Shown here: positions 136 to 50,209 of the stretch, one piece after another
How the letters are laid out: the number at the start of each line of letters is the position of its first letter
How positions within the stretch are numbered: position 1 is the stretch's first letter
Assembly: GCF_032854445.1 (NCBI RefSeq)
Contig: NC_088300.1
Coordinates: forward strand, 28,563,608-28,627,607
DNA length: 64,000 bases
Direction: 5' to 3'
Source: Liolophura sinensis
Lineage: Eukaryota; Mollusca; Polyplacophora; Chitonida; Chitonidae
The notes under the pieces: model-generated
What the model saw: the letters and a program-made list of their open reading frames with translations, nothing else
What the model was told of the DNA's origin: nothing
Databases searched by the model: none
Made by a program: the position numbers and the translations under genes

Positions 136-3100
136 CATTTTCACTCATCACTTTGGACAAGGTATCTTGCTTTAAATTTCCACAAGGGTATAACAAAGGT
201 TTGGCTCCTCGATGAATACCTGTAGAAGAAAAACATTTAATATGGCAGTTAGTGTGTGCCCAAGTCCACATAACTTAATAAGAAAAAAAATTTCCACACA
301 TGTCCACATAAATCATTAAGTTAGTTATTTATATATTGATATTATTGGTACTTTACTCCATACTCAAGGATATTTCACTTATACGACGGCAGCCAATATT
401 AAGGTGGGAGGAAACCGGCAGACCCAGTAAGTAAATTTTTTGAAAAGTACAAAAATCTGAGATATAAAGTTTTGTGAAAAGAGCTACAGGTAATATAAAT
501 CAAACACAACCTGAAACCCAGGAAATCACAGTGTCTTACCAAGTACCTGACACACCTCCTGTTCTGCCTGAAGAACTGATAAAGGACTAGTACCCAACAA
601 GGACTTTGAGATGGTTTCCTTATCAATTATGTACGAACACTGTCACTGTAAACAAGTGTGTATAAGTTTAAATGTTCAGATAGAGTACATAAATGCTCAC
701 AAAGAGCCACAAGAAAAGTAGACTTTTACAATCATCTCACAGGTCTTCTGCATCATTTTGGATGTATCTTATCCTCAGCATTTAATCGGTCAACTGGCTT
801 ATCTTAAACATATGATACCTTATTTTGGTCAATATCAGGTGGAATGCTCATAGGGGTCACAGCTACGCTTATGGCCGACTTCCAGTTTGGAGACAGAGAT
901 TCCTGTACATTTGAACACCACTGCCACATCAACACAAGTTTGTTTTCTCACACATACATGGCCATAGCTATATTTACACACAATGTATATAAACATTCGT
1001 TGGAAAAGTTCTGATAACATATCAGTGGAGCTGGGACTATGTTGTAACAATGAACATTTCTAAATGAAAACATCAAGCTTACTGTCTAGTATAAATGTCG
1101 ATAGATTCCTCGCATTTCCTGTGTCCTCTCCTGTCACAGTAAAGCCCAGGTCTCTGGCTGGTAGAGAATATCAAACATGTCTGTCAGTGATAAACAATCA
1201 GTGATGTCCCCTAATCTAATCAACAATCAGATCAGATTCCCAAAATGTCTGTAAAATACACAGCAAACTGTATAAAATTCAGTAACTAATTGAAATGAGA
1301 GACAACAATAGACATTGGGCAATCTAACAGAATAAAAACAATAACATCATACCTATTTACACTATTGCATGGGTAAAGACAAAGAAATAATGATAATGGT
1401 TATGAGATAATTGGGGTAGCCAAAGAGTTTACCATGTTTGAAAATGCTGTGAAAAAAGTGCCACACATTCCTCGACATATGGAGTCGAGAGACCTGGGAT
1501 CAACAACTGAAAAAGTATGACGGAAAACCCTAAACATACATACTCATCATCTGCCTCTGACCTTGAACACAACAAGCAATGCAACAATATACATCAACAT
1601 TTGTATTTGTGAATCCAACCCAAGGTTTATTACAACATTGCGACAGACATCCATACTTTCACACATCATTACAATAACTTGAGAGTTGACCTACATGTAC
1701 TGCCTCATGACGAGCTAAACACGGATCCTGTAAATGATTACAGCTACATGTGTACAACTGTATTGCACCAACATGAACTAAGCTCAATATACGAGATATA
1801 GTCCCACAGCATTGTGCATACAACTAACACACACCCTCCTCAGCTATTAACACAAGTCCCATATATTGATCATTATAGATGAACAAGTACGGGCACATAG
1901 TCAGGTATAAGCAAAGATGATTACATATTTACCTTGATTACAAGTTGTCTTCCCAACAGCAAACGCTGGACGTTCCTTCCATTTTGTTTTCACCTCATCC
2001 CAAGCTGAAAGCATGACAAAATCACATATATGCATTTGCATCTTAATTCATATGACGGTAGTCCGTTATAAGTATGGATGCAGAAGGCTTCAATAGCTTT
2101 GAGGTCAGTCGGTGATGTTCCCATTAACTAAACGATTTTCCACATTTAGCCTAGAGCAGAAAATATCACAGATCTACAGGAAACCAATCAGAACAAGAAG
2201 AAAAAAGTCAGGGCAGCAGGAGGAAACTGCTCAGAACCAGCAGGAAACTGCTCTGCTTTTGAGGAATCTGCTCAAAACCAGGAGGAAACCATCACATCTA
2301 TCAAGGTAATACATAGCTCACAGTTTACATATCAAATTATAACGATTCATTTGCTTTTTCAGTTATACATTGGCGGCCAATTTAGTATGGGTGAAGGTAC
2401 CCATAGTAAACCAACAACCTTGACAAAGCATACTAGCCAGCTTTTCCATGTGTGACCTGTCATACTGGAGGCAAATGCTTTCCAGAAAATTCATGTAAGA
2501 CTAAACAAGAGAGCACGGGCAACCATTTAATGCCTTTAAAGCCCTGAGAATGAAAGCAGGGGAATCTAGAAATAAGTACACAGTTAATGTTCTCAGTACC
2601 TCCATTCTTTTGAATCGCGGTGTCCACCTTTACAATTACAAATGTTCCATACAAAGTATGCGATGCCTCTGATTGATCTCACCTGATATCATTGGTAGAA
2701 CTCTTTGGACTGCTTCCACAGCCCTGGGACTGGTGAAGACAATCCCGGAGTAGTCCTGTACATTGGTCACAGCCATGCTCAGATCCTCCAGGTTCTGAAA
2801 GTCAAACTCCAGCACGGGGATACTGGACACACAACACTCACTACTGGACAATAGCTGAAACAACCAACAAATATAGGACGTCAAACTTCAGCACAGGGAT
2901 TCTGGAAAAACAACTCACTGCTGGACAGCACCTTGAACAACCAACAAATACAGGAAGACAAACTCCAGAAAATGGATACTGGAAAAACAACACTCACTGC
3001 TGAATAGCACCTTGAACAACTAACAAATACAGGAAGACAAATTCCAGCACAGGGATACTGGAAAAACAACACTCAATGCTGGACAGCACCTTGAACAACC

Positions 3101-6100
3101 AACAAATACAGGAAGACAAACTCCAGCACAGGGATACTGGAAACACAACACTCACTGCTGGACAGCACCTTGAACAACCAACAAATACAGGAAGACAAAC
3201 TCAGCACATGGATACTGGATAAACAACACTCAATGCTGGACAGCACCTTGAACAACCAACAAATACAGGAAGACAAACTCCAGCACATGGATATTGGAAA
3301 AACAACACTCACTGCTGAATAGCACCCTGAACAACTAACAAATACAGGAAGACAAACTCCAGCACAGGGATACTGGAAAAACAACACTCACTGCTGGACA
3401 GCACCTTGAACAACCAACAAATACAGGAAGACAAAATCCAGCACAGGGATACTGGAAACACAACACTCACTGCTGGACAGCACCTTGAACAACCAACAAA
3501 TACAGGAAGACAAACTCCAGCACATGGATACTGGATAAACAACACTCACTGCTGGACAGCACCTTGAACAACCAACAAATACAGGAAGACAAACTCCAGC
3601 ACATGGATACTGGATAAACAACACTCACTGCTGGACAGCACCTTGAACAACCAACAAATACAGGAAGACAAACTCCAGCAAATGGATACTGGATAAACTC
3701 CAGCACATGGATACTGGATAAACAACACTCAATGCTGGACAGCACCTTGAACAACCAACAAATACAGGAAGACAAACTCAGCACATGGATACTGGATAAA
3801 CAACACTCACTGCTGGACAGCACCTTGAACAACCAACAAATACAGGAAGACAAACTCCAGCACCTGGATACTGGATAAACAACACTCAATGCTGGACAGC
3901 ACCTTGAACAACCAACAAATACAGGAAGACAAACTCCAGCACATGGATACTGGATAAACAACACTCAATGCTGGACAGCACCTTGAACAACCAACAAATA
4001 CAGGAAGACAAACTCCAGCACATGGATACTGGATAAACAACACTCACTGCTGGACAGCACCTTGAACAACCAACAAATACAGGAAGACAAACTCCAGCAC
4101 ATGGATACTGGATAAACTCCAGCACATGGATACTGGATAAACAACACTCAATGCTGGACAGCACCTTGAACAACCAACAAATACAGGAAGACAAACTCAG
4201 CACATGGATACTGGATAAACAACACTCACTGCTGGACAGCACCTTGAACAACCAACAAATACAGGAAGACAAACTCCAGCACCTGGATACTGGATAAACA
4301 ACACTCAATGCTGGACAGCACCTTGAATAACCAACAAATACATGAGGCCAAACTCCAGCACATGGATACTGGATAAACAACACTCAATGCTGGACAGCAC
4401 CTTGAACAACCAACAAATACAGGAAGACAAACTCCAGCACATGGATACTGGATAAACAACACTCACTGCTGGACAGCACCTTGAACAACCAACAAATACA
4501 GGAAGACAAACTCCAGCACATGGATACTGGATAAACAACACTCAATGCTGGACAGCACCTTGAACAACCAACAAATACACGAGGCCAAAGTCCAGCACAT
4601 GGATACTGGATAAACAACACTCACTGCTGGACAGCACCTTGAACAACCAACAAATACAGGAAGACAAACTCCAGCATATGGATACTGGATAAACGACACT
4701 CACCACTGGACAACACCTGGAACAACCCACAAATGAACAACCAACAAATACACAACCTCTATGGAATCTGAGCTAAAAATCAATATCGGGTAAGAACACC
4801 ACAGTGCCCCGAGAAAACCATTGCCCAACACCAGTGTAACTGAGAAACCCTTCTGACTTAAAGCCACCTTCAAACCAGCAAGAGTTGGATTTTATCCTCA
4901 AACATCATTGGTCGGAGGCATCTCAAACATAAACATGTTTTGTATGAAATAAGTAATTATACCTTTCTCAATGTCCGGTGTACATCAGATACTCTAGATA
5001 CATGTAATTATTTATTTATTTGCATAACTGGTCTCTATCAATATGCTCAAGTTTTTTTTTTACTCCTATAATAGAGGTCAAGTTCGTGGGTGGAGTAAAC
5101 CAGAGAGATTTCTGAGAAGTAAACCACCAACCTTTGACTGGTGCATGAAAAACCTCCTGACTTAAAGCTGGAGCTGATCTATTTAACTCATACATGCCCA
5201 TGGATGTATGACATTTGGCAGCATAGTGTTTTACACATAACACAACTATATGCAATTAATGGACTAAGACATACCTGAGTGACAGATCCAGAAAAAGGTG
5301 TACTGAAAACGCTGCATGACAGACTGATTGAAATGACATTCAATGTATCAATCGCAACTTAAAATAATCCAGATTTCAGCTGAGCCTACATCTTCAAGGC
5401 CTACAGTATCTGCAGCTTTGCTCATTGCAATATGTTTTTCATCCAAGACAATGAACACAGAAGTTCTTGAAGCAAACACTTTACCAGTCCAATCGTCCAT
5501 ACACGTATACATGAACCTGTAGCTGTCTTCAGTCTGTCTATTCTTAACCACACATCTGATGTGATCCATCCTGAAGCATGTGTCTATATACGCCCTTCCA
5601 TTGGCAAAGTCTGTTTTTCCATCAAGTATCTTTATCGCCACTCAAGATTGGTTCAATCTAAGAATAGCTCCAGAGGTATAAAAATAGCAGTGCTTAGGCA
5701 AATAATAGATAGAAGTATACAAGGAATTCTATCATTCCTCTCTGGAAGTCAAACATAAAGTTTTTGGATCGTTTTACACATTCAGCAGGCTTGCTATAAA
5801 AATTCCTAGAGTTGACCTACATTTCAAGTAAGGCAAACCTCAGAAACACATGCAGAAATGCATCCTAGAAGCTTATCTACACTGTAACAAGATGTATTAA
5901 AGCAACACACATGTAAGTGTAAGATTTGTTAGTTGTTACAGTATTTTTACATAAAAATGAAAGCTACCGACTATACAAACTAGAACTGCACACAATTTGT
6001 CTCCACCCCATTTATTTAAAAAAGGGCTACAATTCCTGGCCACCAGTCCTTTCATGTGGTAAGACGTAAGGCATACTACTGTCATACTGTACTGCTGACC

Positions 6101-7281
6101 AAACAGAAACATTATTAAAGTACTTCTTCTAAAGGACAGTAAAATCCAAAAAAATGATTTTAAAATATAAAAAAGAACACCAGTGCACTTGTAATACCAG
6201 TTCACACGTACATGTAAATGCATATAGTACGACAGTGTTTTCCTGCTGATAAGAAAACAAACACAAGGGGAAAGTTGACAGGCAATAACATGTTCCTGGT
6301 AAATTAATCTTGCATACAACTATATACATACACATTCACATGTACATGGAAATAAGAATGGCCATTCTATATGTACAGTATTATGAGTATACCCATAATA
6401 CACAGACAACATACATGTATATATGTATTGCACATGTAGGTAAGTTTTCAGAACAATGGGACAATAGTACAACAGTGGCAGCTGCCGGAGGTCAGGACAC
6501 ATAGCTTACATGTAGGCCCTACACATACTATTACATGTAGTCTCATAGTAACTCAATGGCAAGATACAGAAATATATGATGTCAGTGACCCTCATGTTAA
6601 GAGTTACAAGCAACACATATTTCCGTACCCTGTCACTAAGTAAACCATGTAACAAATTTATCCTGCGACAGACCTATCAATATGCACCTGTCAAACATCT
6701 GGCAGCAGGACCTTGACGGCATTTTATTGACATCAAACATTTCTTTCCCAGCTCATCATGATGACATCACATCAAAGACAGTACACCTTTGATGTAACAA
6801 CTGTTCAAGGTCGTGCTTTACACCAGTGCCACCTCACGGGATTAAAAGACATGCCGCCTCCCCATTCAGCATAGAAGACCAATGAATAGGCAAATCTCTT
6901 CAGCAATATGACCACTGTTTTCACATCTGATCGAAGGGAGATAACCTTGTCAACTCATACATGTGACATTGACTGCAGAATATGGGAATAATATGCCCGT
7001 CATGTGACCAATACTGTCCAATGAAATTCCAAGTATTTTATCTGATGCTGTATAAATGTATATGCTTCCATTCACTTATCCACTTCAACAATAACCAATT
7101 AAACCTAACAAGCCCATGTTACAGACTTGCAAAGCAGATTTTTTTAAGCAATATAATAATTTCTATCACACCTGAAAGACGTTAAATGGAAAACTGTTAC
7201 CTGTACCTTTTCGTAAGGATCTCTGTCGTCATCAACTTGACTAGGACAGCGGAATAGCACCACCTTCTTCTTGGACTCCAT
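136..7281 (-). CDS. UROS: Uroporphyrinogen-III synthase, five 5' coding exons (3' end beyond the window)
   Basis: Cyclises hydroxymethylbilane to uroporphyrinogen III, the fourth step of haem synthesis, in the cytosol. Exons on the minus strand: 7207-7281 (starts ATG, MESKKKVVLF), 2683-2854, 1933-2004, 1083-1157 and 136-219. All have GT-AG borders and codon phase is continuous across every junction. Signatures matching the animal enzyme in order: RDPYEK, then IPVLEF, IVFTSPRAVEAVQR (exon 2), KTKWKERPAFAVGKTT (exon 3), GEDTGNARNLSTFIL (exon 4) and KPLLYPCGNLKQDTL (exon 5). This is 478 coding nt, about 159 residues of a ~265-residue family; the C-terminal half lies left of position 1. A TTTAG acceptor four bases before the ATG suggests an upstream 5' UTR exon, which I did not locate. 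Intron 1 (4.3 kb) holds the 79-bp array. Family identity is from memory but rests on several independent motifs. Confidence 0.93.
315..430 (-). repeat. SINE family A, 3' fragment
   Basis: Carries the TACTCAAGGATATTTCACTT and ACGACGGC...GGTGGGAGGAAACCGG landmarks of the 3' half of the SINE seen full-length at 11.2 kb. Diverged and lacking the tRNA-like head. It lies in a UROS intron. Confidence 0.7.
2855..4735 (-). repeat. 79-bp tandem array built from the UROS exon-2 3' splice junction
   Basis: About 23 head-to-tail units of 79 bp (some 78 bp, two truncated) fill the end of UROS intron 1 and abut exon 2. On the minus strand each unit starts with an intronic TTTGTTGGTTGTTCAAG stretch, then a near copy of the first ~50 nt of exon 2 encoding LSSSECC...VLEF, and then returns to intron sequence. 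Exon 2 itself reads LLSSSECCVSSIPVLEFDF, so the unit is ~29 nt of intron plus ~50 nt of exon. Since 79 is not a multiple of 3, the units cycle through all frames and make long overlapping Cys-rich open frames that are not genes. Confidence 0.97.
5345..5641 (-). pseudogene. Unrecognised ~97-residue open frame inside UROS intron 1
   Basis: I do not recognise this with certainty. It is an uninterrupted frame on the minus strand with protein-like composition, including RFMYTCMDDWTGKVF and ASRTSVFIVLDEK. Alternating hydrophobic strands ending in VFIVLDE resemble the last strands of a hotdog-fold thioesterase, but that is only an impression. A stop codon sits immediately upstream of the first codon and there is no ATG start near it, so it is more likely a processed or decayed fragment, or a single exon of a nested gene, than a complete gene. 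Splice borders were not convincing. Confidence 0.3.
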
Positions 7282-17038: not shown

Positions 17039-18562
17039 CTAGAGCTGATGATTCTTGAATGTCTCCCGGCCTGTGATTACCCGGAAGTCGTTGTGCCCCT
17101 GGAGAGCCTCCTCTTTAGGAGAATACTTCAGATCCGTACCCAGGATTAGGGCGTTTTGAGCCAATGATAATTGAGTATTGACGAATTTTACCCGACCGGT
17201 GACTGGAAGCGGAAACCCTTTGGCACCTAATTTGTTCAGCTGGGGCTTGACGTAGATCAAAATGGCGCCATTGAGGAGCTCCTGGAGGCGTTTGGCGTCA
17301 ATAGGACCGATCTTAGAATCCCCCATTTTTACTCCCAAAGCCATCTTTTCTATTTCCCCAAAGATCAGTTCGTCCTTCACAGACGCAGTTAATGTAGTGT
17401 TAAGGTCCACTCCAACAGAAAACATGAAGAACTGACTACTGTTAGCCGTTCTCGCAAAGAACGAGATATTGCCACCGAAACTGACGGCTATGGCCTGAGG
17501 GGAAATGGACATTTTGGGGGCTCTGGTGGACACCATGTTCAATTCTCCTTTACTGTTTGGGTACAGTTCTGCAACCTTGGGGATGAGCTTGCCCAGACAC
17601 AAAGTAAAGCCCTGGCATGTCGTATTAAGGAAACCTCGTTTGTCAGCAGGCAAGTCTTTGTCTGTTACATTCGTCTTCAGGACTCCATGTTTGTTGGCCA
17701 CATAAGCCATGGTGTTGACTAGATACTCAGAACCAAGGAAATAGATCATTCTGCTGACGTTAGTGATGGGTGGGATGGGTGGGGCCGGGAATGGGGCTTC
17801 CTGTACAGCGTCCGACCAGTAAACCTCACCCTTATGCATGATGTCCATAGCGGCAGAAGAGAAGACAGGGGCGGTCAAGAGGCGGTAGTCCAGCATAAAC
17901 TTGTGGTCAATCGTCACAGTCACAGGCAGCTTACTGAGTGAGGATTCAGCGTTCTTGTCCACGGCACCTTGGGCGGAGGAGCAGATGATCCTCTGTACCT
18001 GTCTCGTGATGTCCCCTTTAAACAGCCCTGTGAGCAGGTTGTACAGCCATGAAGCTCCTCCATGGAACTTTATGGAAAGGTGTCCTACGTCACATTTACA
18101 GCCTGTAGACTTGATAGAGGGTCGTCCGCCTGAGTCCTCACCCATGCCAACGGACAGGCTGAATGTCGTATCCCTAATAGACACATCCACACTTCCATGA
18201 CCGCTAATGGAGATGATCTTCTTGTACTTATACTTGAAATCGGCATGTATGGAGAGGCCGAGCCCTCGGGCAGACCAGGTTAATCCGGACCCGGGCCGAG
18301 GCACCACAGTACTCTGGGGTTTGTCGAATCCTGTGATTTTGATGTTACTGAGGGAGTACTTCAGGTTGTGTCCACTGCCATCTACGTCAGGGATTTTCTG
18401 CTTGGTGATAGTTGTGGACAGGACATCGACAGCTACCTGGGCAGCATAGTTAAATCCCTTACTCGTGACACGACTGTGAAACCCTGGGGGTACCGAGCCC
18501 TCGCAGTCGGGAATCACAACGGACAGGGCATAGAGGAAGAAAACACAGCATACACGCCTCAT
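17039..18562 (-). CDS. LBP/BPI: Intronless LBP/BPI family protein, copy A (intact)
   Basis: Predicted secreted lipopolysaccharide-binding / bactericidal permeability-increasing family protein of innate immunity: 507 residues in one uninterrupted frame. I use the ATG at 18562 because copy B shares sequence only from there; the frame is open a little upstream without an ATG. Residues 1-22 form a signal peptide (MRRVCCVFFLYALSVVIP, then DCEG). Family features: Cys155/Cys157 and Cys194 matching the conserved N-domain disulphide region, HGGASWLYNLLTG after it, the proline-rich linker APFPAPPIPPI, and MIYFLGSEYLVNTMAYV opening the C-terminal barrel. Several N-X-S/T sequons are present. Length fits the family (~480-500). 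Members usually have many introns, so a single-exon copy is odd. Ligand specificity is inferred from family only. Confidence 0.93.
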   Translation of the reverse strand: MRRVCCVFFLYALSVVIPDCEGSVPPGFHSRVTSKGFNYAAQVAVDVLSTTITKQKIPDVDGSGHNLKYSLSNIKITGFDKPQSTVVPRPGSGLTWSARGLGLSIHADFKYKYKKIISISGHGSVDVSIRDTTFSLSVGMGEDSGGRPSIKSTGCKCDVGHLSIKFHGGASWLYNLLTGLFKGDITRQVQRIICSSAQGAVDKNAESSLSKLPVTVTIDHKFMLDYRLLTAPVFSSAAMDIMHKGEVYWSDAVQEAPFPAPPIPPITNVSRMIYFLGSEYLVNTMAYVANKHGVLKTNVTDKDLPADKRGFLNTTCQGFTLCLGKLIPKVAELYPNSKGELNMVSTRAPKMSISPQAIAVSFGGNISFFARTANSSQFFMFSVGVDLNTTLTASVKDELIFGEIEKMALGVKMGDSKIGPIDAKRLQELLNGAILIYVKPQLNKLGAKGFPLPVTGRVKFVNTQLSLAQNALILGTDLKYSPKEEALQGHNDFRVITGRETFKNHQL

Positions 18563-19043
18563 CTTGTCACACCAGAAACTGGAATGGCATCGACAATCCC
18601 GACGCAATTAAAATAAAACCATGTATTATAGTGAAGCCGTAAAATCCCAGTGTTTACTTCCTTGATATGAGCTGTCTGTAGCTACGTCACAGGTTCACGA
18701 GGCACGCGGGAATACCCCTTTTGTAATATAGCACTACATGTAGGCCCAATGTAGGTCACACAGCTTTTACTAAATAGTGTTAGTCTCGCAAAGTATGTTT
18801 TTCCTCGCCTTATTGGCAGGCCCCCAGGTCTGGTAATGAATGCAAATTGTAATTTTAAAACAGCAAGAACAATAAGCTGTGACACAGATTCCTAGTGACT
18901 TACACACACTTAGCCTGAGCTCTGCCGTGCAGTCAACATAACGTGCAGACAAAAATAATTCCACTTCCCTGTCGCTATCAGACTGCCCTCCAGACGTCAG
19001 GCAACAGTATGGACTAAAACGAGACTACAACAGGGCTCCTTCA

Positions 19044-21300: not shown

Positions 21301-21795
21301 ATATTAAGTCAGAATCTGACGTTACACGAAACTGATTCTCTGTGGGTCCGAAGGCACCTAGGGATGAACCTAAAGGAGTTTACCAACGGTGAATTTAATC
21401 GAATACTGAGAATTAATTGTGGAGTTTGCATCACGTCCAGCGGACCGGAACTGTTACGTGAGCTGTTCAAAATACAACCAAATCACATGCAGTGCACTTC
21501 AAGACAACGTTTTCTGAACAACATCCACGTCAGTTAGAACAGGAATTAAGAGGTCTAAGCTCAGGTTAAGTGCTTGAACAATAGGGAGGCCAGGGGGAAC
21601 CTAGCAATAATTATTCACGTTGCTTGAGGTAGATATATTTAGTGATACCATAAATGGCGCATTTCGAGAACACTTCGTGAAATTGTAAAAACTCTGTATT
21701 TGTTATCAAGGCTGTACAGAGGTTGGGTGTTCTTCCGGTTTCGTTATTTTATACATGAGTTTTCAATATAAACCGCCAGTTTCAGAGGTGACAAG

Positions 21796-23319
21796 ATGAG
21801 GCGTGTATGCTGTGTTTTCTTCCTCTATGCCCTGTCCGTTGTGATTCCCGACTGCGAGGGCTCGCTATCCCCAGGGTTTCACAGTCGTGTCACGAGTAAG
21901 GGGTTAAATTACGCTGCCCAGGTAGCCGTCGATGTCCTGTCCACAACTATCACCAAGCAGAAAATCCCTGACGTAGATGGCAGTGGACACAACCTGAAGT
22001 ACTCCCTCAGTAACATCAAAATCACAGGATTCGACAAACCCCAGAGTTCCGTGGTGCCTCGGTCCGGGTCCGGGTTAACCTGGTCTGCCAAGGGGCTTGG
22101 CTTGTCCATGCGAACTGACTTTAGTTATAAGTACAAGACGTTCATCTCCATTAGCGGTCATGGAAGTGTGGATGTGTCTATTAGGGATACGACATTCAGC
22201 CTGTCCGTTGGCATGGGTGAGGACTCAGGCGGACGACCCTCTATCAAGTCTACAGGCTGTAAATGTGACATAGGACACCTTTCCATAAAGTTCCATGGAG
22301 GAGCTTCATGGCTGTACAACCTGCTCACAGGGCTGTTTAAAGGGGACATCACGAGACAGGTACAGAAGATCATCTGCTCCTCTGCCCAAGGTGCCGTGGA
22401 CAAGAACGCTGAATCCTCACTCAGTAAGTTACCTGTGACTGTGACGATTGACCACAAGTTTATGCTGGACTACCGCCTCTTGACCGCCCCCGTCTTCTCC
22501 TCTGTCGCTATGGACATCATGCATAAGGGCGAGGTTTACTGGTCGGACGCTGTACAGGAAGCCCCATTCCCGGCCCCACCCATCCCACCCATCACTAACG
22601 TCAGCAGAATGATCTATTTCCTTGGTTCTGAGTATCTAGTCAACACCATGGCTTATGTGGCCAACAAACATGGAATCCTGAAGACGAATGTAACAGACAA
22701 AGACTTGCCTGCTGACAAACGAGGTTTCCTCAATACGACATGCCAAGGATTTACTTTGTGTCTGGGCAAGCTCGTCCCGAAGGTTGCAGAACTGTACCCA
22801 AACAGTAAAGGAGAATTGAACGTGGTGTCCACCAGAGCCCCCCAAATGTCCATTTCCCCACAGGCCATAGCCGTCAGTTTCGGTGGCAATATCTCGTTCT
22901 TTGCGAGAACAGCAAGCACGGATCGGTTCTTCCTGTTCTCCATTGTAGCTGACCTAAACGCAACACTGACGGCGTGTGTGAAGGACGAAATGGTCTTTGG
23001 TAAGATAAAAAAGATGCAGTTAGGGGTTAAAATGTGGGACTCCAGGATTGGCCCTGTTGACGCCAAACGCCTCCAGCTGCTCCTCAACGGCGCCATTTCG
23101 TTCTACGTTAAGCCCCAGCTGAACAAATTAGTGCCAAGGGGTTTCCGCTCCCTGTCACGAGTCGGATAAAATTCGTCAATGCTCAATTATCATTGGCTCA
23201 AAACGCCCTAATCCTGGGTACGGATCTGACGTATTCTCCTAAAGAGGAGGCTCCACTGGGCCATAACGACTTCCGGGTAATCACAGGCCGGGAGACATTC
23301 AAGAATCATCAACTTTAGA
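21796..23319 (+). CDS. LBP/BPI: Intronless LBP/BPI family protein, copy B, with a C-terminal frameshift
   Basis: Paralogue of copy A in opposite orientation, starting at ATG 21796 with the same signal peptide, cysteines, HGGASWLYNLLTG and proline linker. As read, it stops at 23169 after 457 residues. Against copy A, one G is missing at about 23130-23131 (AAATTAGTGCC here, AAATTAGGTGCC in A). From there the protein ends in an unrelated 13-residue tail. The original frame downstream stays open and similar to copy A until a TAG at 23317-23319, so the break is recent or a sequence error. The lost ~50 residues are the final strands of the C-terminal barrel. Similarity to copy A begins about 25 bp before the ATG and stops at the stop codon. 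Confidence 0.9.
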
Positions 23320-43200: not shown

Positions 43201-46200
43201 CCCACGCCTTGTGTTCTAGTGATTGCAAAACAAGTGCCTTAAGCATTTGGCTGATGAAAACTGAAATTAACCATGTATCCGTACCATCATATCTGTACCC
43301 ATCCTCTGGGGCGAAAGGGCTGCGGAGTTTGTAGCCCCTGATAACCCTGACAGGGTTGCCACTCTCAACATTACGGGATAGGGCCAGGTTCCCACGGGTC
43401 AGGGTCTGATCCTTAGACTGAGCAGCTGTCCTCAGGTTCTGACAAGGTCAAAGCATGAAGGTCAAGGTCAGTTAATGACCTAAATAAATTACCTAAATAA
43501 TAAATAATAAATAATAATAAATTTCTTCCACCTTGTTACTTCAAGGTGGAACCCAGTGAAGACTCTTTCAATTGCTGGCCCAAATCTGATCTAATGACTT
43601 CCACATAAAAAAAAAAATTGATATAATGGTAACATATCAGACATGACAAATGGCAAATTTTGTCAGGTTTAGCATATTTATACCATAATTTAGTAATGTG
43701 GCGTAACTTTAAGCAGATAAACTTGTAGTACAGTCCAATACCATGCTCGTAAACATTTCAATTAGACACTCTCAGTCTGTAAGTGAAACCACAGCAGTTT
43801 GGGAAAGTTTTTTTTCGCGAGCTCGTCCCTTTCCTGGGCGCCCAGGACTCGTCCATACAGGACCATACAATCCAATAACGTATTGATTATACACCCACTT
43901 GTCAAAAACGTAAGTAAATAAACTCGAACGCTAAACAAATTGGGTAAAACCGTGCTAATTATTTCATATCGCATAACAATAGCGGATAGCCGGTTGCGGA
44001 TGAATATGGAATACTGAATGGAACACTTTCATTGGCTGACAGAAACTAGGTCAGGCGCACGTGGCCAAAGCGGTATTTTACAAACAGAAGTGTTATGAAA
44101 AGGAATGCAGACGTTTCAGTGAAAATTAAAAGTGCAGTTATCGAACACTGCACCACCAAACAGACTACAGTAATCTTTACAAGATGAGGATGAAAGAGAT
44201 GTAGAGTTTGCTGACAAAGTTAGCTGATTATCCTTGGGATTCTGTGCGGAAGTTGATGGCATCGGATTCCTGAAAACTTCGTTTGTGTGGACTCGAGCTG
44301 ACTGGCCAGGGAGTGGAAGCGCAGGAGATGGTTGACTGAAGGCACGATTGCCCTGAATTAAACTTGACATTTGCTTCTGCTCTACGTGATCTAATTTAGA
44401 ATCATACTCCTGGATGCTAGCAAGGGATTTGTGTCTGGTGACCTGCATAATTTTATGTGGAGCGACGCCAGACTTTATAGAGTTTGGATGGTTGTTTTTC
44501 GGACCGAGTGATTAGTTTTCCGGCATTTCAGTCCAGCAGCCTCGGCTGCCCTCTTCATTAGCTCTCCCAAATGATGCTCTCCCATTGGAGTGGGGGTATA
44601 TGACACAGCTGCATCAGGTTTGAGGCGACATTCGGGAATTGGTGTGAGGTAGATGTCCAGCTCTGGGTCATCAAATGGATCAAGTAGTATGCAAATTTCA
44701 GCGTCGCTGAGATCAAAAGGTCAGAATCTGACTGATCGGCAGCCATGCTTCTTGTGGCGTCTGCTTGTTGACAAACAAAAAGTAGTCCGTACGTGTGACG
44801 TCACATTTACAACTGTCCAATATATTAAAAATGTTGGACAGTTGTGTTTACTACATAATATAGTAGGCGCTCAACACTTAGAGCAGTTACTGGAGTGCTA
44901 AAGTACATGAATGATATTACATATTGAATATAGCACAAAAAATACAACTTAAAGAGATAATCACCTGCTCAAGTCTTGTTTCTCGTTCAATAATTTAACA
45001 ATTACCTTTGGGTTAGACTTTGTTCCCTTTAAATCTCTTCCACCTTAACAAAAGAGAAGAACATTATATTGGAATGTTAATGATAAACCAAGTCTGCGGT
45101 GATTTTACACCAGGCACTGTAAGTTTGCTTCAACACCGGAATCATACATTAGCTGTTTTAACGCATCTCAAAAACTTGTCGCAAGCATCCTGTCTTCATT
45201 TACATATTTCAATGCTGTTTAATGCCATACTCAAGAAATTACCATTTATAAACAATGGCTGTCAGTTTTATGGGCAAGGGGATACCCTATTGTTGGTGGC
45301 AAGCCACCGGTCTACGAAAAGTTACTGATGAAATCTTCCACATGACTTGCAGATTTATTTATTTATTTGATTGGTGTTTTACATTGTACTCAAGAATATT
45401 TCACTTATATGACGGCGGCCAGCATTATGGTGGGAGGAAACCGGGCAGAGCCCGGGGAAAACTCACAACCATCCACAGGTTGCTGACAGACTTTCCCACG
45501 TAAATTGTATGAGCGGAATTGTATTAGCGGAATAACAGTGGTCATCAATGAACTTAAGACAACGCAAATGACCCCTATCAGCACTGTCAACCATTTCATG
45601 TCACCCAAAACCAACAAATAATGATATCAGGGGGTACAGACATTCCCTGTCCATAGCCTCTGACTGGACGCGCTTAAAATTTTGAGATTTCAGTAAACCG
45701 TGTTTAAGCCATGATGGCAATGCTTTATAAATAACTATGTATTTACACTCACCTTCTCCTGTGTAGGTAAAGCACTCTCCCAGGTCTATGTCATCCTCGT
45801 ACCCTCCTGACAGGGCAATGGAGTACGCCCCATCCTCTCCCCCATGGATCCCAGCTACTGTAGGTCTGGTACAAGTACGTATTCAAGGTTCAACCAATAA
45901 ATGTAGAGGTATATGTTAGTTAAATAAAAATTTATCATGTCGCACTCAATATGTGGATATATGGAGGGAACCACTTTAAATATCCAAGCTCTAGGTGTGG
46001 ATTATAACATCATGCATATATGGACAAACATGTAATACCGACAAATATGAATTCAGACCTTGTGATACAACACTAAAATGTCTTCCATTTGAATTCATTT
46101 TGTCGCTACTGAACAGGAATGACGCAATTTAATGACTTTTAGGAGGCTTCTCAGAATTAAAAAAAAAGGACAAGACAAGAATCAACAGAAATTAGACTCT

Positions 46201-49200
46201 GGTAGTAAATATTAGTGGATCTGGTTTGTGCCATACTACTGGAAAGCTATGGAATCTGTGGCAGCTTTCAATGTGAATAAAAAATGGGGTTCTGACTGGA
46301 AATAACTAGTTAAATGAGCAATATATATTCTACCAACAGAAAGTTTAATTTTTAATGAACAAAATTTAGTGAAATAAGTTGATTTTTATTGAAGCAGATC
46401 AGTAAAGGCAGCGTCATCTAATGGATTCTTACTTTCCACAACTGTCTTATTTTCTCATCTATACAATGCATTCGACACAGCCAGCCAATCGTTACAGGTC
46501 ATGGCTTGAGCCCCTGTAGTAAGTCCAAGAACCCATCACTTTCCACAGAACACTGGCTTGTCACCTTTATGAAATCTGATGAAGGGAGATAACCCAGGCT
46601 AATGTGTGTATGAGCTTACCTGTGAATTCCAGCATGACAGGCTTCCATTCTTGTTTTGCCACAATGTGCCGACTTCCACACTTGAACAGACAAGAATAGA
46701 ATGAGCTAATGTATTAACCATACTTAAAATACTGTCTGTGTTACTTATACAAAAAAATTTACATGCAAGGGAAATCATAAAAAACTTTTTAAAATGTTTA
46801 ACTAAATATTTGGTAGTTGACAAAACACACGTATTGATAGTCAAATGATGCACTTGTACAGATGGAACATCTATACAACAGACGGAAGCTGGAGTAAACT
46901 ATCCAGCAAGTAACTGGCCCTCATTTACAAACTTTCACCTGCAGTGTGAGCTCATTAGTGGAAAGCAAGTGATCTCCCATAAACTTTGTGTAAGACCCAC
47001 CTGGATGCACAGCTGACTGACTGCTGACAGCGGTGGAAGCACTGATGAAGTCACTGTACAGCTGAATCACTGGCGACTTGTATTCAAGCCCAACTTTTCT
47101 CTTGTAATGCACAAGTAATACGTTATCTCTTCACTCAAAAAATGCCATCACAAAGGCAGAACGACCAATACTCTTCAGTCTAGGTCCAAAATACATTAGG
47201 CAGGAACGGTCCTCCATCGCATCATGATTGAACCAACACATCTGACAATTCAAAGAGAATTATCTAAAAGACAGGTGAAACAAATCCACCTCTCGCAAAA
47301 AAGTGGATCTGAGATGGTTATGTCACAGAAATCCAAAATGCATACCTAACATCTTTCAATAAAATTAAATGTGATTGAAAATATACTAACTCCATTAAAT
47401 TTTACAAAAAAAAAAAAACATTTCGTATTATATTTGAAACACCTGGAAGAGAAGTCTCCACTGATATCTTATCTCCCCAGGTTTCTATCTTGTTCTTTAC
47501 TTTTCTTCATATCAGAATGGATACAGTTTTTTTTTTTAAAGGAAAAGACCTCTAAAAATTGAAGAAGGTATCATTAAATAGACCATTTTTGTGAAGAGAG
47601 ATAAAGGCATTCAAACATTTGAATTCTAAGGCGGGCTTCATGGGCCATACTATCTGAGTTTATAACTCCGACATCACATGAACACGACACACTGAATGTT
47701 GGAATAACTCTTTTTACCCATGAGTAAAAGATTACGGATAAAATATTCCCCAAAAATTCCTTTTCTTCTGGTGAACATCAGGAGAAAAAAGGGTGATATG
47801 ATGTCAAGAGTTCCTAGACACTGTCAGTATGGGCTCATAAAGTCCACCGGAGTATTCAAATATTTGAAATGTCTTTCAACACTCATAAAAATAATCTTTT
47901 ACTTTAACTTAAAGTTTTTCACACAGTTAAACAAATGGCATGCAGTGCACTACCAGGTATACAAAGCTACAAACACACCAATGTACACCATACACCTGAC
48001 AAACTAAACGAGATGCAATTACCTTCCACTGCTCCATAAAAGTTTGGTCTGTTCGGCTTGACCTTTAACCTCGAATTCTGCTCTTCTTCCACAAACCGGT
48101 CCACCTCATCCTTCAACTCTTCTGCATTAGGAGCTGCCTGGTAACAGGGAAATAACAAGGTAAACCTATACAGTCTAACTTATCTTAACACAACATAAAA
48201 ACATAGTATTGGAAGACTAAACAGCTATTTAGCTTAGTATGCTGCCCTGAAACCAGGGACAGCCTGCCCTCCTACAAAACAAAACCTAGACAACCTTCTG
48301 CACTTTCCCTGGATTAAATCCATACCTCTTAAAAATATTCATCACATTATTCATCCTTTCCCTAGATTCTGGATGACCATGTTTTGTGTTCCGAGGATGG
48401 ATCAATACCTTTGTCATTTCCATGACAAAACTCACCTTTCCCTCTATTTTCAATGACTTTCTGCATGTTCCATGGATACAATCTGTATCTCTTGTCTGCA
48501 TGACCAGGCTCACCTTTCACTGATTTCTGGATGACCACATCCTTCATCAACTCCATGACAAGATTCACCTTTCCCTGGATTTTGGATGACCTTCTGCATG
48601 TCCTGTGGATAGATCTGTATCCATGATCGAATCCAAGACAGATTCACCTTTTCCTGGATTTTGGATGACCTGCATGTCCTGTGGATGGATCTATATTCCT
48701 CATCATCTCCAGGACAGACTCACCTTTCCCTGGATTCTGGAGACCTTCTGCTGGATGGATCTATATCCATGATCTCCAGGACCAGACTCACCTTTCCCAG
48801 GACTCCCAGGATGGATCTATATTCCTCATCATCTCCAGGACCAGACTCACCTTTCCCTGGATTCTGGAGACCTTCTGCTGGATGGATCTATTATCCATGA
48901 TCTCCAGGACCAGGACTCACCTTTCCCAGGACTCCCAGGATGGATCTATATCCCTCATCATCTCCATGATCTGTATCCCTCATAACATCCATGACTAGAC
49001 TCACCTTTCCCTTGACTCTGGATGACTTCTCCATATCCAGTGGATGGATCTATATTCCTCATCATCTCCAGGACCAGACTCACCTTTCCCTGGATTCTGG
49101 AGACCTTCTGGCTGGATGGATCTATATCCATGATCTCCAGGACCAGGCTCACCTTTCCCAGGACTCTGGATGACTTCTGCAGATCCTGTGGATGGATCTA

Positions 49201-50209
49201 TATTCCTCATCATCTCCAGGACCAGACTCACCTTTCCCTGGATTCTGGAGACCTTCTGCTGGATGGATCTATATCCATGATCTCCAGGACCAGACTCACC
49301 TTTCCCAGGACTACCAGGATGGATCTATATCCCTCATCATCTCCATGATCCGTATCCCTCATAACATCCATGACCAGACTCACCTTTCCCTGGATTCTGG
49401 ATGATCTTCTGCATGTCCCCCGGATGGATCCATATCCCTCGTAGTCCTGATCAACCTCCACTGCTTGTTTTTTGGGCACCCATTCTCCTCCTGTACTGTG
49501 GCGTTTCCTCTTAACGGATTTCTTTACAACTTTTCCCAAGGGCTTGAACTGCATAGACAGTAATATCATTTCACATCATCAAACTTGTGTTATAGCAGGT
49601 GCTGTGCTCAAAAATTTGTTTTTATTTAGGAGCCATTTGGTGAGTAAATAAAAAACATCACTTACATCCCAATAAATAATAAAAAATTAAAATTAAATCC
49701 CCTCAATCTGCCAGGGAGGAATACTATCCTAGGGGAAATATATTTCTCAATGCAAGTGCAGACAGAATTCACTAAGGTAAAGGCTGAAAGTTACCTGTAG
49801 CTTAAATCTTTCTCTATCCACTGGCGACATATACATGTGGATCAACCTGTCTTTTCCAGTTTCAATCTGGTGAGAAACTTCACGCATGAAAGTACACTCC
49901 TGTCTTTACTTGCCAATGACGAGTTAAATCATGCGAGATATGAGTTGAGCTTAATTTTTAGACAACTCTGGCGTCTGTGATGATGTCCGAGTGAGTATTT
50001 GCATATCTTATCACTTGATGTTTACTTTCATGACATTTTTTCAATTGTTGTAACTCACTGTGTGAAAGAGAGCGGTGACGAAATGGTTCAGTCCTTCTCA
50101 GACTACTGGATAGGATCATTAGCAAGAGGGAGATAATCTTAATTTACTACCTTCAGTGATGATAATAACAACTCACTGTCACATTGCCGTCCTTGCCGCC
50201 GACAGCCAT
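40289..50209 (-). CDS. SRA/YDG-domain protein without RING (modified-cytosine reader), 11 exons
   Basis: Predicted nuclear protein binding methylated or hemimethylated CpG through an SRA domain. Exons, minus strand: 50177-50209 (ATG 50209), 49795-49866, 49384-49548, 48023-48137, 46620-46672, 45753-45865, 45006-45043 (38 nt), 43285-43438, 41655-41770, 41004-41277, 40289-40380 (stop). Phase is continuous except for one extra base in exon 5. About 407 residues: basic N-terminus with a nuclear-localisation-like [12 protein letters not shown] at ~127-290, then a long Ser/Glu-rich tail. SRA motifs: [96 protein letters not shown] and GVWKFALRR. It lacks the ubiquitin-like, Tudor, PHD and RING modules of UHRF1. 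An A-run at 46654-46657 appears one base too long. Intron 3 holds a minisatellite and intron 6 or 7 a Crypton relic. Confidence 0.9.
40478..40672 (-). repeat. SINE family A, diverged, in the last SRA intron
   Basis: CTCAAGAATATTTCACTTAT, CCAGCATTATGGTGGGAGG, ATCATCTGCAGGTGG and TGGACTTGAACTCAC landmarks; the tRNA head is eroded. Confidence 0.82.
42490..42860 (-). repeat. Rearranged SINE family A with an internal duplication
   Basis: The CATGACAGCAGCAGGAAA segment and following TTGGGGAAACCCAC occur twice (about 42546 and 42627), then the rest of the SINE 3' half and the TGGACTTGATCTCACAGCGA B-box region follow. Located in an SRA-gene intron. Confidence 0.75.
44116..44750 (-). pseudogene. Crypton-type tyrosine recombinase relic (DUF3504-like)
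   Basis: Cryptons move with a tyrosine recombinase. Minus-strand segments in order: start [10 protein letters not shown] at 44746; after a one-base shift near 44715, [18 protein letters not shown] and [34 protein letters not shown], with the catalytic His-x-x-Arg; a TAA and second frame change near 44478; then [20 protein letters not shown] and EYD, giving the second His and nucleophile Tyr. The C-terminal tail ends near [15 protein letters not shown], as in Crypton-derived animal proteins. Two frame disruptions make it a dead copy. It lies on the same strand as the host gene, in the intron between SRA exons 7 and 8. Identification is from memory of the ZMYM/QRICH1 DUF3504 domain. Confidence 0.8.
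44809..44845. other. Perfect 12-bp inverted repeat upstream of the Crypton relic
   Basis: ACAACTGTCCAA at 44809-44820 and TTGGACAGTTGT at 44834-44845 with a 13-nt AT-rich loop. A palindromic CRE-like GTGACGTCAC lies just before it (about 44796-44805). Both are upstream of the recombinase ATG, so they may be remnants of the element's own 5' region. Confidence 0.7.
45352..45505 (-). repeat. SINE family A 3' part
   Basis: TTTATTTATTTGATTGGTG, CTCAAGAATATTTCACTTAT, ATGACGGCGGCCAGCATTAT, ACCGGGCAGAGCCCGGGG, and CATCCACAGGTTGCTGACAG; the head is missing beyond CTTTCCCACGTA. It is well preserved, so fairly young. Confidence 0.9.
48290..49440 (-). repeat. ~70-bp tandem array carrying the SRA exon-3 5' splice junction
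   Basis: Fills the 5' part of SRA intron 3 and includes the end of exon 3. Read on the minus strand, each unit has GATATAGATCCATCC, then CCAGAATCCAGGGAAAG, then GTGAGTCTGGTCCTGGAGAT. The exon ends with that same AATCCAGGGAAAG at 49384, followed by GTGAGT. About 14 GGGAAAG/GTGAG-type junctions occur between about 48430 and 49400 at 60-90 bp spacing. Units alternate between an AGAATCC and a GAGTCC version, and the right-hand end near 48300-48500 is most decayed. Confidence 0.93.

Follow-up and report, generated by a model that had tools for sequence, protein, structure and literature searches.

A probable mirage-type minisatellite derived from a 3′ splice junction in a molluscan UROS gene

A 79-bp array ending in UROS exon 2

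Intron 1 of the UROS gene in our 64-kb window (the whole stretch of DNA analysed) ends in a tandem array whose units resemble the junction between that intron and the exon that follows. How did such an array come to lie against a coding exon, and does it affect the gene? The preliminary description named the gene UROS from its letters, and protein comparisons agree: the local protein matches the HEM4 profile (E = 1.3e-9) and human UROS (1jr2; E = 2.7e-10), in the latter case over 74 residues without a gap across the join of exons 1 and 2. All parts of the gene discussed here lie on the minus strand. The coding part of exon 1 (MESKKKVVLFRCPSQVDDDRDPYEK; 7207–7281), read from the sequence and included with exon 2 in the HEM4 match, ends at a phase 0 donor, GTACAG. 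Intron 1 (2855–7206) has GT...AG ends, the human alignment running gap-free across their join. Its position is probably the same as in human UROS, where an intron presumably follows codon 21 (splice variant c.63+1). Exon 2 (2683–2854; 172 nt), placed by sequence and protein match, begins at the true acceptor, ...TTGTTTCAG/CTATTG (the slash marks the splice site), and is the terminal copy of the array.

The array occupies 2855–4749 (minus strand), at the 3′ end of intron 1. Tandem Repeats Finder called it over 2799–4734, and motif anchoring resolved 23 full units, besides the copy in exon 2 and a stub of 15 nt at 4749–4735. Each unit consists of the end of intron 1 and ~50 nt from the start of exon 2. 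The composition first described, about 23 units of 79 bp joining intron end to exon start, is thus borne out; the extent first given, 2683–4735, is not, because 2683–2854 is exon 2 proper. Unit length is 79 bp in 17 cases, 78 bp in three, 77 bp in one and 104 bp in two, both of the longest units containing an internal duplication of 25 bp. The units match the true border (79 nt from 2872 down) at identities of 0.76 to 0.85. Divergence from the consensus is greatest in the outermost and exon-proximal units, and the centre is near-uniform: there, two 419-bp blocks of five units each (4339–3921 and 3920–3502, together 3502–4339, minus strand) are identical at 416 of 419 positions and appear to be the product of a recent block duplication.

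The array is confined to this place. When one unit was compared by BLAST with the whole 609 Mb genome, all 25 matches fell within the UROS array, among them the exon-2 border itself (85%, E = 4.8e-17). Alignment of unit and border scored 51, compared to at most 18.5 in 5000 shuffles. Two findings had been named beforehand as telling against a junction origin, dispersal of the array away from UROS and a match between unit and exon 2 no better than chance; these numbers point the other way on both counts. The assembly covers one haplotype and contains one UROS array locus. A dispersed repeat, introner or transposable element was considered as well and is ruled out by the genome BLAST: the UROS unit, like that of a second array in the window (in an SRA-domain gene, see below), matches one array only.

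Decoy acceptors in the repeated units

The preliminary description also placed an AAG in the acceptor position of every unit and took it for the unit's decoy acceptor. Such an AAG is indeed present in 21 of the 23 units. The exceptions are the outermost unit, which has CAG, and the unit at 3343, in which the site is shifted (CAGG). It is neither the sole nor the best decoy, however, as each unit holds a further two to four YAG trinucleotides. Pyrimidine content of the units is unchanged at 0.65, and GTGAGT is kept in 14 of 23. The exon-adjacent unit (2873–2949, minus strand) is distinctive in sequence: it alone carries TTGAC, which fits yUnAy, lies ~26 nt upstream of the true acceptor and may serve as its branch point. 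Most other units have TTGTC there. The same exon-adjacent unit contains a TGA (2888–2890) in the frame of exon 2.

We followed the consequences of using each of 21 AAG and 67 YAG decoys. All would meet a stop within exon 2 or earlier, and a functional enzyme would therefore be expected from none of them.

One possible reading of these results is that the array is a regulatory device, in which decoy acceptors or non-productive splicing adjust the output of UROS. Many decoys leading to premature stops are what a poison-splicing switch requires, and every decoy followed here leads to one; the two to four YAGs of each unit, and the GTGAGT kept in most, fit such a device too. On the other hand, the acceptor of the repeated unit is degraded to AAG, and TTGAC is missing except beside the exon. 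The recent 419-bp copy and the unevenness of the units suggest drift, and similar structures sit on unrelated genes (the SRA gene and ankyrin, BTAF1-type and fucosidase genes, described below). We consider regulation very improbable. The earlier suggestion that the array could tune UROS output is not supported by the decoy stops, the AAG in 21 of 23 units or the confinement of TTGAC to the exon-adjacent unit, and the sequence evidence as a whole does not support a regulatory role.

Donor-side arrays in the window and across the genome

The second array in the window is the mirror image of the first. An exon at 49384–49548 (minus strand) ends in ...CCAGGGAAAG/GTGAGT, and this end is the first copy of the second array, in which a further 13 copies of the exon's end and 5′ donor follow it (48400–49383, minus strand). 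The next exon, with splice sites read from the sequence, lies at 48023–48137 (minus strand), and an exon with approximate ends at 45740–45882 (minus strand) encodes an SAD_SRA domain (PF02182, E = 2e-10). Strand, order and the preceding exon suggest that the SAD_SRA exon and the array belong to one gene. Units of this array are 72–88% identical to the real junction and are unique in the genome. Decoy donors run from 49300 to 48436, and in most of them the core donor, AAAG/GTGAGT, is identical to the real one. Use of the first would add 28 codons in phase, with no stop. The second keeps the frame open but is out of phase, and later decoys meet stops.

Two other features of the window may be recorded here. 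Downstream of the SRA-gene exons, ORFs at 44119–44720 (minus strand), judged by eye to resemble the C-terminal part of tyrosine recombinases, are possibly a Crypton-type element. Two near-identical genes of the LBP/BPI/CETP family (17042–18607, minus strand, and 21772–23166, plus strand) stand in inverted orientation ~3 kb apart, each a long single ORF; the N-terminal domain was matched at E = 1.6e-9.

To gauge how common donor-bearing arrays are, we counted donor triplets, defined as three perfect MAGGTRAGT motifs at set spacing, with reversed and permuted motifs as controls. Genome-wide, 1466 triplets were found at 49–79 bp spacing versus 352 for the reversed control, and 2151 versus 398 at 80–110 bp; since matches overlap within arrays, these counts exceed the number of distinct arrays. 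The excess over the reversed control is thus 4.2- to 5.4-fold, compared to 1.4-fold for the single motif (33605 versus 24368). Permuted motifs gave 226 and 639 triplets. Distinct arrays, counted by hand in the first 85.3 Mb of C1, numbered 29 for the donor motif, 12 for the reversed motif and 5 for the permuted one, the difference between 29 and 12 having P = 0.006 against equality and P = 0.065 against the single-motif baseline. Many minisatellites on C1 have a perfect 5′ donor in each unit (e.g. L025, L030, L048, L028, L043). The acceptor-type motif (TTTNYAGG) behaved differently, with 2898 matches versus 2416 in the control genome-wide (1.20-fold, compared to 1.005-fold for the single motif). 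As acceptor arrays are at most slightly enriched, the acceptor side of the class, to which the UROS array belongs, is either rarer or harder to detect.

We inspected the edges of the first eight donor arrays; edges of donor arrays only were viewed in this way. Five begin at an exon's donor, the exon being coding or apparently so. They lie at an ankyrin-repeat exon (Ank_2, E = 2.2e-10), where the exon end is identical to the unit at 30 of 31 positions; at a DUF3535 exon (BTAF1/Mot1-type domain, E = 6.6e-6; 55 of 66 identical); at an alpha-L-fucosidase exon (E = 3e-4), where mainly the intronic side is repeated; at a weakly matched polycystin-like exon (E = 0.04), with only the donor side repeated and a suspected GC donor; and at an unidentified ORF (40 of 51 identical). 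In one of the eight, a 31-bp array with donors in its units (L045, ~1330–1710, reversed strand), the repeats start ~55 nt into the intron, past a coding-looking exon, and copies of the exon end are absent. At two of the eight, a search of the edges found no coding exon.

These surveys bear on a simpler explanation, that an ordinary intronic minisatellite touches the exon by chance and that the donor excess is an effect of composition. The genome is rich in minisatellites, reversed and permuted motifs yield arrays too, and the two sampled arrays lacking a coding exon are what such a view would expect. It does not readily account for units that match coding sequence in UROS, the SRA gene, the ankyrin exon and the BTAF1-type exon, with the exon as terminal copy, nor for a four- to fivefold excess of triplets where the single motif shows 1.4-fold. 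Chance is therefore a very unlikely explanation. Instead, the UROS array appears to be part of a genome-wide phenomenon made up mostly of donor-type arrays.

Some incidental features of the genome were also noted. Eight molluscan haemocyanin units stand in a row, and mitochondrial genes can be read with the invertebrate code, as fits a mollusc. Amphioxus was considered as the host and rejected, given this haemocyanin and a search for the GFP family that gave no match, the latter carrying little weight by itself since the control genomes gave none either. Contig C99 carries seven copies of COX1 spaced ~15.5 kb apart, and C632 carries one; the head-to-tail mitochondrial copies of C99 are probably an assembly concatemer.

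Origin of the array and its relation to mirages

Which came first, the exon or the repeats? The motif IPVLEF, conserved in UROS, lies inside the repeated segment, and the distance from exon start to IPVLEF is the same as in the human protein. The gap-free human alignment across the join indicates that repeats have added nothing to the length of exon 2. Together with the absence of the repeat from the rest of the genome, conserved motif and conserved length argue that the exon is older than the array, which on this evidence derives from an ancestral exon border and not the reverse, as had been proposed from the letters. That an exon start was instead made out of a pre-existing array is hardly credible on these same grounds, even though the 11 residues preceding IPVLEF (LLSSSECCVSS) are hardly identical to human UROS.

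We favor, with a probability of roughly 0.85, the view that the UROS array is a mirage-type junction minisatellite, a tolerated duplication that expanded on the intron side. A tandem duplication across the 3′ junction would have left a second copy on the upstream side of the real exon, the real acceptor and its branch-point-like TTGAC staying beside exon 2. Because the real acceptor kept that place, the second copy would have been removed with the intron and hardly exposed to selection. Growth may then have proceeded by unequal exchange, including the recent 419-bp duplication. The amplified unit lost its CAG (now AAG) and TTGAC, so the decoys are probably weak; any decoy used would give a frameshift or a stop. 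Expansion towards the exon would be blocked because the protein would change. A similar process may operate at 5′ donors elsewhere in the genome; the decoys there remain perfect, presumably since the donor nearest the exon prevails. That donor decoys stay intact whereas acceptor decoys are disarmed we put forward as a hypothesis drawn from two arrays and a weak acceptor signal.

A broader proposal, to which we give somewhat less than even odds, is that minisatellites in this genome arise preferentially at splice junctions, especially at donors, with hundreds of genes having arrays built from the ends of their own exons. Some process linked to transcription or splicing would be what seeds the repeats at junctions; donor decoys would remain perfect with the exon-proximal donor winning, and acceptor arrays would persist only if their decoys lose the AG or the branch point.

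The name 'mirages' was given to tandemly repeated exon-intron borders in Adh3 of amphioxus, and further cases are known there from the globins BflGb6 and BflGb9, troponin C and PGBD5 (PMC3087553, PMC3902484). Either border may be affected, units are 10–160 bp long with middle units homogenised and edges diverged, and splice signals are present in many but not all units; RT-PCR showed normal splicing, and copy number varies between haplotypes (PMC3087553, PMC3902484). The UROS array has a unit within this range (79 bp, 23 copies), diverged edges and a homogenised centre. Both at UROS (76–85%) and at the SRA exon end, the unit spans the border and the real exon forms the terminal copy. With every testable structural feature of mirages present, we assign the UROS array to this kind, in a phylum that is, as far as could be seen, new for it. 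Differences exist as well. Copies number 23, compared to 3–6 in BflGb6, and in this genome two arrays share one 64-kb window and donor arrays show a genome-wide excess. In amphioxus, splicing and length variation were assayed, whereas the mollusc arrays are known from the genome sequence of a single haplotype. Mirage hosts in the literature searched are cephalochordates, although this is not part of the definition, and the host here is a mollusc; a partial literature search found no report of junction-spanning minisatellites outside lancelets.

Two other systems invite comparison. According to its title, Turri et al. 1995 reportedly describes a minisatellite in human IFI6 (6-16) that provides multiple splice donor sites. 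The likeness, judged by title, lies in minisatellite units that carry splice donor sites within a gene. By that title several of the IFI6 donors are used in the transcript, whereas the UROS units carry acceptors and are read from genomic DNA. In the model of Rogers, introns are created via tandem duplication of AG/GT proto-splice sites (discussed in PMC3087553). Here too tandem duplication copies splice sites, the UROS unit having AAG/GT and the SRA unit AAAG/GTGAGT; in contrast to that model, the flanks of the UROS intron join in gap-free alignment to human UROS, and no new intron is seen. Arrays of this type offer a large natural set for asking how the spliceosome chooses one of many closely similar sites and whether tandem repeats originate at splice junctions. 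Junction minisatellites have been described in lancelets and suggested as a source of new introns; the mollusc cases, occurring twice in 64 kb and with a donor excess genome-wide, suggest that animal genomes produce them more generally.
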